Source: a virus
Virus record (IMG/VR): IMGVR_UViG_3300017732_000021
Coordinates: 1-37,905 of that record
Reading direction: 5' to 3' (one strand)
DNA: 37,905 bases
In this document: piece after piece, positions 30,402 to 32,844 of the stretch
How positions within the stretch are numbered: position 1 is the stretch's first letter
How the letters are laid out: every line of letters starts with the position of its first letter
Program-made: the position numbers and the translations under genes
Notes under the pieces: generated by a model
Seen by the model: only the letters and a program-made list of their open reading frames with translations
Database searches by the model: none
Told to the model about the DNA's origin: nothing

Positions 30402-30890
30402 TTGCCTACATTTGTATATATGACAGCCTGTGATGGCTGCGGTTATTGCGTTGATATTTGTCCAAGTGACATCATGCACATTGATCCAGTAACACGAAGA
30501 GCAGTAAACATAGAACCAAACTTTTGTTGGGAGTGCTACAGTTGTATAAAAGCATGTCCACAAAATGCAATTGATGATCGTGGGTACTCAGACTTTGCGC
30601 CTATGAACCATAAGGTCAGGGTATTAAGGGAACCAGAAAAAGGCGTTATTAGTTGGCGGCTTAAATTTAGAGACGGCAGAGAAAAACACTTTGAAAGTCC
30701 TATCCGTACAACACCTTGGGACAGTATAAAATGTGCAAGTGAGTATGACATGCCCGAACAAGGACTTAAAGATACACAGCAACTAGCACATGAACCAGAA
30801 TACTTACTGGCAGATGGCGGCTTGCGCATGATTAATAAAAATAAATTTGTTAAATACAAGTATACAGGAGATACACATGGCACCGCGTAA
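30402..30890 (+). CDS. AprB-like ferredoxin, 2x[4Fe-4S]
   Basis: This 162-residue protein starts with TTG at 30402 behind AGGAGAAG. The sequence closely resembles the beta subunit of adenylylsulfate reductase. Two 4Fe-4S motifs are seen: Cys10, Cys13, Cys16, Cys20 and Cys42, Cys45, Cys48, Cys52. The first begins CDGCGYCVDICP; the second, CWECYSCIKACP, has the Trp43 that lies on the electron path in AprB. The tail (RVLREPEKGVISWRLKFRDG) is the arm that embraces AprA in the bacterial complex. No aprA is in this window. It probably feeds electrons to a partner, and the oxygenase-like product 14 nt into its 3' end is the best candidate. Confidence 0.85.
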   Translation: MPTFVYMTACDGCGYCVDICPSDIMHIDPVTRRAVNIEPNFCWECYSCIKACPQNAIDDRGYSDFAPMNHKVRVLREPEKGVISWRLKFRDGREKHFESPIRTTPWDSIKCASEYDMPEQGLKDTQQLAHEPEYLLADGGLRMINKNKFVKYKYTGDTHGTA

Positions 30891-32046: not shown

Positions 32047-32268
32047 ATGAAAGAGTTTTTGCTTGTTATCTCAATGTGGGGTAACACAGGCACTGAATGG
32101 GAGTACATTGGTAATCAAATTGTACTTCAAGAACCTATGACTGAAAAACAATGTCAATATATAATTCAAGACAGCAAATGGGCTCAACACTATGAGAACG
32201 AATACTACAAGATGGTTGTTCAGTGTTATCCAAAAGAATGTGCTGGTCAGGAATCTTGCACAAATTAA
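32047..32268 (+). CDS. Small protein of unknown function
   Basis: This 73-residue protein starts at ATG 32047 after AAAAGAGG. The N-terminus MKEFLLVISMWGNTG is mildly hydrophobic but too short to be a certain signal peptide. Three C-terminal cysteines (VQCYPKECAGQESC) plus one in the middle suggest a disulfide-bonded or metal-binding protein. It ends just before the tmRNA promoter. Confidence 0.65.
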   Translation: MKEFLLVISMWGNTGTEWEYIGNQIVLQEPMTEKQCQYIIQDSKWAQHYENEYYKMVVQCYPKECAGQESCTN

Positions 32269-32297
32269 TTGACAAATATACAAAACAATGCTATAAA
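32269..32297 (+). promoter_or_regulatory. Sigma70-type promoter of the tmRNA gene, overlapping a late motif
   Basis: TTGACA (32269-32274) and TATAAA (32292-32297) are separated by exactly 17 nt. The -10 is inside TATAAATAA, which also fits the phage late element. The tmRNA could be read both by host sigma70 polymerase early in infection and by the phage late sigma. Confidence 0.75.
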
Positions 32298-32307
32298 TAA
32301 TATGTAA

Positions 32308-32365
32308 CGTTGAAGCAAGTTCAACGCTGGACAGGACCGGGGGGCGGTACCCCGCGCCTCCACCA
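32308..32365 (+). ncRNA. tmRNA acceptor piece
   Basis: This is the 3' domain of the permuted tmRNA. It begins with a 7-bp hairpin CGTTGAA/TTCAACG (32308-32314 with 32320-32326), then GGACAGGACC, the T-arm and the acceptor strand ending CCA. The encoded CCA marks the mature 3' end. The 5' end is estimated from the promoter. Confidence 0.8.
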
Positions 32366-32474
32366 ATACACATTAAGGTGTGTGCTTATGGGGGCGAAAT
32401 AGGATCGACTGACAGTTAATAGGCAAGTGGAGTTATCCGGCGCAAGCACGGTTATCGCAAGAAAAACTATAATT

Positions 32475-32516
32475 GCAAATGACAATTATCAGCCAGAAAT
32501 GGCACTAGCAGCCTAA
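32475..32516 (+). other. tmRNA tag reading frame (ANDNYQPEMALAA)
   Basis: Codons from the resume codon GCA at 32475 to the TAA at 32514-32516 encode 13 residues. The start AND and the end ALAA match bacterial tags; the middle NYQPEM is specific to this gene. It lies in the coding piece of the permuted tmRNA. Confidence 0.9.
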
Positions 32517-32580
32517 GTATAGGTATGCGTGGGCGGGTACTGCCTAGAAACAGAAGTGCCACTTATATAAGGAACAGACT

Positions 32581-32844
32581 ATGGGTAAGAAAAGATCTAG
32601 ATCAACACAAACAAGTAGCGGTACACACTGTCAAAAGAAGTCAAGTTACAGCAAACAACAAAGACGTGAGTACAATGAAACATTTATGCAAGCAATTAAC
32701 AAACGCAGTGCTTGGGCAAGTGGCAAAAACGTAATGCTTACAATACCTAATCCAAATACAAATGAAACCAACAAACCTTTTATCCGTGTACCTGCGCATG
32801 AGCAGTGGGGCGACTGGCGTGGAAAGAAGGCTCCATCCAAATAA
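32581..32844 (+). CDS. Small basic protein of unknown function
   Basis: This 87-residue protein begins at ATG 32581 behind AAGGAACAG, directly after the tmRNA. It is rich in Lys, Ser, Asn and Gln. The first half is highly basic (GKKRSRSTQTSSG, CQKKSSYSKQQRREYNETF), suggesting RNA or ribosome binding. No family is recognised. Its 3' end overlaps the lipoprotein-like gene by 40 nt. Placement next to tmRNA and a ribosomal-protein-like gene hints at a translation role, by context only. Confidence 0.6.
   Translation: MGKKRSRSTQTSSGTHCQKKSSYSKQQRREYNETFMQAINKRSAWASGKNVMLTIPNPNTNETNKPFIRVPAHEQWGDWRGKKAPSK

Follow-up and report, generated by a model that had tools for sequence, protein, structure and literature searches.

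Very probably, the window analyzed here (the whole stretch of DNA, a linear IMG/VR virus record of 37,905 bp that is itself a fragment) encodes a working two-piece tmRNA of the alphaproteobacterial type, and this tmRNA belongs to a phage family in which the excised spacer would act as a gene-cassette site in relatives. The evidence is computational throughout. Taken alone, the window tmRNA extends by one the list of phages with a ribosome-rescue RNA of their own and, given that permuted tmRNAs of phages have already been published (PMC9004378), is a further case of a known type; the family-level result on the spacer matters more. Complete open reading frames are found inside the spacers of relatives and not in that of the window, which is too short (24 nt) for a gene, so that the cassette claim rests on the relatives. 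Both this use of the spacer and the family membership of the ORF upstream of the tmRNA are invisible from the window alone and were missed by the preliminary description of this DNA, which had been made from its letters only.

Anatomy and tag of the tmRNA

The site was scanned with ARAGORN and with all Rfam families, and these searches together with the anatomy of the locus identify positions 32304-32565 as a circularly permuted tmRNA of the alphaproteobacterial type (Table 1). The alpha_tmRNA family RF01849 gave a full-length match above its gathering threshold (32265-32565, 117.8 bits, E=1e-31; threshold 50), as did the tmRNA_permuted family RF04321 (32304-32516, 117.4 bits; threshold 47), and ARAGORN reported the permuted form with the tag ANDNYQPEMALAA. 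The start of the RF01849 match at 32265 takes in promoter DNA; a position near 32304 is the probable start of the mature acceptor piece. The models do not define where the coding piece ends, so that its 3' limit of about 32565 is approximate. The anatomical claims of the preliminary description were borne out by these searches. It had described a two-piece tmRNA on a phage, with the encoded CCA part ahead of the 5' GGGGGCG part and a 24-nt spacer between them, and both of these proved exact to the base; the 7-bp acceptor stem with its G3-U70 pair and a tag ending in ALAA are likewise present, and the alpha-tmRNA covariance search that it had proposed as a check is the RF01849 match given above.

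Table 1. Positions of the tmRNA, its parts and its neighbors in the window
Feature	Position	Strand	Details and basis
73-aa ORF (SMWG family)	32047..32268	+	ends directly before the tmRNA promoter
Promoter	32269..32299	+	TTGACA 32269-32274, 17-nt spacer ending TGC, TATAAATA 32292-32299
Acceptor piece of tmRNA	32304..32365	+	Rfam RF01849/RF04321; T-stem covariation
T-arm, acceptor piece	32338-32342 paired with 32350-32354	+	loop GGCGGTA
Acceptor 3' strand	32355-32361	+	CGCCTCC
Discriminator	32362	+	A
Encoded CCA	32363-32365	+	
Excised spacer (intervening segment)	32366..32389	+	24 nt, with 7-bp closing stem
Coding piece, mRNA-like part included	32390..32565	+	3' end approximate; Rfam alignment
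Acceptor 5' strand	32390-32396	+	GGGGGCG; opens the coding piece
Tag reading frame	32475..32516	+	ANDNYQPEMALAA + stop; ARAGORN; conserved, with variants, in closest phages
87-aa ORF, phrog_23239 (putative protein)	32581..32844	+	directly downstream of tmRNA; synteny anchor

The acceptor stem comprises 7 pairs, among them the G3-U70 pair of alanine identity, which is present in 253 of 253 phage copies in a set chosen for full acceptor pairing. The T-loop agrees with the alpha_tmRNA consensus, and the coding piece contains the conserved GGATCGAC. When 15 related phage copies were aligned, three pairs of the T-stem were found to be changed on both sides (for example, C-G, G-C, U-A), and the T-stem cells were paired in 100% of cases compared to 42-57% when the partner was slid by 1-3 columns, which argues that the tmRNA structure is not due to chance. 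The acceptor stem is invariant in this alignment and accordingly uninformative on covariation. The window RNA folds into the acceptor stem, a 4x4 internal loop and a 7-bp stem that closes the spacer, with a folding energy 2.4 standard deviations below that of shuffled sequences.

Among the 12 closest contigs, the tags are ANDNYQPEMALAA, ANDNHQPEMALAA, ANDNYQAEMSLAA or ANDNQQPEMALAA; the window tag has the usual start ANDN and end ALAA, and across related phages the middle of the tag varies freely. An LAA end was found in 169 of 185 phage tags compared to 25 of the 44 bacterial tags sampled. This ending is recognized by ClpX-type unfoldases, and because the window tag keeps it, proteins marked with this tag should undergo normal degradation. 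We detected the exact tag in none of 84,980 species genomes, and a looser pattern had three matches, one of which is itself a phage contig in a metagenome bin. This contig (L323; PALK01000009.1, 29,883 bp) comes from a 'Rickettsiales bacterium' bin and has been binned as bacterial, and its locus is shared with an IMG/VR virus record.

The preliminary description had raised the possibility of a private tag that redirects proteolysis, and a special tag sending host proteins to a fate chosen by the phage would be in line both with the absence of the exact tag from the species genomes and with the published speculation that phage tmRNA tags host proteins for recycling (PMC9004378). We nevertheless consider this quite unlikely. 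The comparison with bacteria that had been proposed bears out a distinct tag and not a private function, given the ordinary ANDN...ALAA frame and the free variation of the middle among related phages; because the tag keeps the normal degradation ending ALAA, redirected proteolysis is unsupported. It is very unlikely, too, that the RNA is a decoy that blocks or diverts host trans-translation. Such an effect has a precedent in the tmRNA-like RNA of phage DS6A, whose expression in E. coli inhibited the tmRNA of that bacterium (cited in PMC11915505); however, the DS6A RNA has no tag, whereas the window copy has a full tag frame with a stop, and LAA ends are kept more strictly in phages than in the sampled bacteria.

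Promoter, phage relatives and proposed mode of action

The promoter directly upstream of the tmRNA combines two signals. The motif TATAAATA, which is also the T4 late-promoter motif, overlaps the sigma-70 -10 box and is kept upstream of phage tmRNAs, namely 145 of 248 related copies; the exact arrangement TTGACA-N17-TATAAATA, mostly preceded by TGN, is present in 86 of the 248, and TATAAATA was found upstream of none of the 48 bacterial tmRNA copies sampled. The combination of TTGACA with an extended -10 box suggests strong transcription by host sigma-70, and on these motifs the tmRNA would be expressed early, possibly also late. The T4 late promoter is recognized by the phage sigma factor gp55. 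A late promoter as the sole promoter is unproven, and we rejected it because TATAAATA is not enriched over chance in the whole window (6 occurrences vs 4.8 expected) and a perfect -35 box is conserved alongside it. A simple promoter scan gave no call at this site because it demands T at position 6 of the -10 box. Early use of the tmRNA, based on a predicted early promoter, has been postulated by the authors of the Melnitz study (PMC9004378).

The genes of the window match those of T4-like marine phages, with relatives that include Synechococcus phages, Melnitz and Pelagibacter phage HTVC008M. The preliminary description had staked its reading on paired acceptor ends in related phages, and these were found: a permuted tmRNA is located beside the downstream 87-aa gene in 12 of the 12 closest phage contigs (gene 75-100% identical), and 12 of 16 longer, more distant records that contain this gene have a permuted tmRNA as well. 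The window copy shares 79-98% identity with the nearest phage tmRNAs, compared to 68% with the nearest of the 48 sampled bacterial copies, which argues for an established phage gene without recent capture from the sampled bacteria. An alphaproteobacterium was presumably the source from which the tmRNA family was once captured. A rival reading is a decaying or captured host copy without function in the phage, left for example by imprecise prophage excision. We regard this as highly improbable: all 12 nearest contigs keep the tmRNA, all pairs of the covarying T-stem are intact, the phages share a conserved promoter that differs from the sampled bacteria, and the nearest sampled bacterial tmRNA is as distant as noted above.

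A blastn search of the region against known phages returned only 59 bp, in Rhodobacter phage RcRudolph (L320, OP009285.1). This phage carries an unannotated permuted tmRNA whose tag is ANDNVRMDAQALAA and whose spacer measures 98 nt; a called hypothetical protein overlaps this tmRNA. In a close relative (L254:4284-4499), the T-loop of the tRNA-like part is the canonical TTCAATT and the acceptor stem differs, and the remainder matches L253; this looks like the product of recombination between tmRNA lineages. Within the window, a protein with 4Fe-4S and APS-reductase beta-subunit C-terminal domains (PF12139, 9e-23; 30402-30890) adjoins a relative of Rieske-type ring-hydroxylating oxygenases (PF00848; 30847-31968). 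Both proteins also recur near the tmRNA in related phages and are possible sulfur or redox auxiliary genes.

An alphaproteobacterial host, to which the preliminary description pointed, is plausible, but the case for it was overstated. OM43, the host group of Melnitz, belongs to Gammaproteobacteria in GTDB. Melnitz carries an alpha-type tmRNA and its host is a Methylophilales strain (PMC9004378); with a tmRNA of this type in a phage that infects OM43, an alphaproteobacterial host of the present virus is not established. None of the 15 phage records searched, among them Melnitz and contigs with lengths of 316 and 244 kb, yielded an SmpB gene, so that host SmpB would be needed.

In the mechanism that we propose, host RNA polymerase would transcribe the tmRNA early via TTGACA/TGN/TATAAA, and later in infection its expression may be sustained by the overlapping T4-late motif. 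The precursor would fold, and host RNase P together with the tRNA 3'-end enzymes would cut after CCA and before G1, releasing the spacer. Host AlaRS would then charge the acceptor piece through G3-U70, host SmpB and EF-Tu would deliver the tmRNA to stalled ribosomes, and the stalled proteins would receive an ordinary degradable tag, with ribosomes and amino acids presumably staying available during infection. The earlier suggestion that the virus supplies its own ribosome-rescue RNA is supported by inference.

Genes in the excised spacer of related phages

Across phages, the length of the excised spacer ranges from 8 to 464 nt, and the long spacers often hold a complete small ORF. Viral contigs were scanned by spacer length alone, with no requirement for an ORF; a spacer was counted as filled if an ORF was located wholly inside it and covered at least 75% of it, the counts were made on clusters of spacers of at least 100 nt, and expectations were obtained from dinucleotide shuffles. 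Filled spacers were found in 44 of 104 phage clusters compared to 4.07 expected, and those with a ribosome-binding site in 30 of the 104 compared to 0.25 expected; in the antisense control on the same clusters, 3 were filled and 2 had a ribosome site. The nested ORFs mostly start 11-23 nt after CCA and stop 1-15 nt before G1. Crude clustering of the encoded proteins, which are small and often membrane-like, yields 20 families. In the ten families with enough variants, pN/pS, calculated as simple pairwise sums with phylogeny ignored, ranged from 0.05 to 0.44, and the changes were concentrated at third codon positions; by this measure, the nested gene families tested are under purifying selection. 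The nested proteins include an HNH homing endonuclease (phrog_655, E=2.3e-13), a PGDYG protein and one with a weak match to DUF2061; two of the spacer-filling protein families had no match among named phages. The HNH gene occupies a 464-nt spacer (L079) and is preceded by its own TATAAATA and ribosome site.

Even with their spacers filled, the tmRNAs score above the Rfam thresholds, the copy with the 464-nt insert reaching 103 bits. The contigs with nested genes carry T4-like replication genes, namely those for a DnaB-type helicase and a gp32-type ssDNA-binding protein, as well as PhoH, and the recurrence of the nested arrangement in contigs from different samples argues against assembly error. 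Very improbable is the reading that the ORFs of long spacers are chance occurrences or by-products of structured spacer RNA: some long spacers contain no ORF and some frames enter the coding piece, but the excess over both the shuffled expectation and the antisense control, the third-position changes with low pN/pS, the stand-alone homologs of several families and the homing endonuclease domain all speak for genes.

In L324, L327, L329 and L333, the spacers (78-125 nt) have no filling ORF and look strongly structured, possibly representing spacer RNAs with a role of their own. In L018, L049, L516 and similar cases (spacers of 159-177 nt), a ribosome site and a short first ORF stand at the beginning of the spacer, a membrane-like ORF of 38-44 aa overlaps this first ORF, and these spacers may contain two overlapping small genes each. 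In the Melnitz ORF, and likewise in four of the counted clusters, which belong to two families, the frame extends into the coding piece of the tmRNA.

The ends of the spacer pair in all length classes tested, and the stem formed by them covaries across phages. In long spacers, this closing stem has a mean length of 8.0 bp compared to 4.6 +/- 0.14 when the ends were swapped between sequences, and it is also present in the window beside the acceptor stem. Of 35 nested genes, 13 have their ribosome site within the closing stem and 10 more have one that overlaps the stem, so that translation could depend on tmRNA processing; this placement suggests that processing may control the translation of the nested genes.

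The window itself is linked to the nested genes through the ORF that ends at its tmRNA promoter. The protein encoded by this ORF is 58% identical (E=4e-32) to a 75-aa protein that L323 and related contigs encode within their 266-nt spacer, and a further SMWG homolog is nested in L639. Searches gave 9 nested and about 100 stand-alone hits; in other phages, the SMWG gene is found about 1.1 kb upstream or 188 nt downstream of the tmRNA. For other nested families, too, members were found as ordinary genes, either in the vicinity of the tmRNA or on different contigs. The SMWG protein had no Pfam or PHROGs match, and its predicted fold (pLDDT 84) had no significant match in PDB or among viral models. 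Within the window's own group, near-identical phages have occupied and empty sites: between L251 and L140, the upstream flank and acceptor piece are 94.9% identical, and the spacers measure 202 and 24 nt, respectively. The spacers of L251 and L248 lack a clear start codon and are possibly decayed. The window copy is ordinary for marine phages and represents the empty state of the proposed cassette site.

Bacterial genomes, sampled irrespective of base composition, served as controls. Among 385 alphaproteobacterial genomes, none had a matching spacer of 231-291 nt and one had a spacer of 111-171 nt, without an ORF; no ORF-filled spacer was found in the 20 longest of the approximately 150 bacterial matches listed. 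Among the phage matches listed, nested genes were present in 3 of 15 unique copies in a sample drawn by sequence pattern, with spacer length ignored, and in 3 of 26 copies in a sample drawn by neighboring gene. Roughly one of 5 to 10 phage copies contains a nested gene.

Taken together, these comparisons make it likely that T4-like marine phages have, in the excised spacer of their permuted tmRNA genes, a recurrent site for gene cassettes: small genes would move between the tmRNA flank and the loop of the closing stem, be co-transcribed with the tmRNA and be translated either from its precursor or from the fragment that is cut out. The conserved stem next to the acceptor stem closes the spacer, and in filled copies the loop carries one small gene, usually with its own ribosome-binding site; such genes are also found beside the tmRNA as ordinary neighbors, as in the window. 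Because the spacer would be removed by tRNA-processing enzymes, a gene in it could be tolerated without harm to the mature tmRNA, like genes inside introns. In the literature searched, we found no report of protein genes in an excised tmRNA spacer, although a mention in the older work of Sharkady 2004 or Mao 2009 is possible, and no demonstration that a nested gene is translated.

Relation to known systems

Phage tmRNAs of the permuted form are not new, and the preliminary description overstated their novelty: 53 of 133 unique phage tmRNA structures were already two-piece, 50 of these 53 from marine or aquatic phages (PMC9004378). Buchholz and colleagues described the two-piece tmRNA of phage Melnitz (PMC9004378), and the tmRNA database paper, in which RF04321 was built, lists 79 phage tmRNAs (PMC11915505). 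Melnitz, Pelagibacter phage Mosig and other marine phages resemble the window in carrying a permuted alpha-type tmRNA in a T4-like marine phage (PMC9004378). Melnitz has the same TTGACA-N17-TATAAATA promoter as the window but differs in its 142-nt spacer, which contains a ribosome site and an ORF (predicted peptide MFKWLSKTRLVV...) that enters the coding piece, and in a glutamine riboswitch match directly downstream of the tmRNA (L651:6399-6447), of which the window has none at the Rfam threshold. Cultured Melnitz would allow tests of spacer ORF translation, of its control by tmRNA processing and of the role of the small proteins.

The defining parts of RF01849 and RF04321 are the same as in the window tmRNA, and the contents of the spacer fall outside these family models. 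Permuted tmRNA genes with long spacers may conceal genes, which is a warning for annotation. Foreign material in the excised spacer, as in the phage relatives, is known from permuted tmRNAs whose intervening sequence harbors a tRNA-Ala gene or a repetitive element (PMC11915505). However, those inserts are single bacterial or nominally archaeal cases and not protein genes (PMC11915505), whereas the phages contain about 20 recurring protein families.

The HNH gene of L079, with TATAAATA ahead of it, resembles intron genes driven by late promoters. T4 genes contain group I introns with homing endonuclease genes. Group I introns with such genes in the T-loops of tmRNAs likewise place a gene inside RNA that is removed at maturation (PMC11915505), as in the phage spacers, and the homing endonuclease among the nested genes parallels mobile introns. 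There are, however, two differences: the phage spacer would be removed by tRNA-processing enzymes, with the pieces not rejoined, and most of the nested genes do not encode endonucleases. The nested spacer genes would accordingly represent a non-intron way to hide a gene in an important RNA gene, with its removal left to the enzymes that process tRNA.
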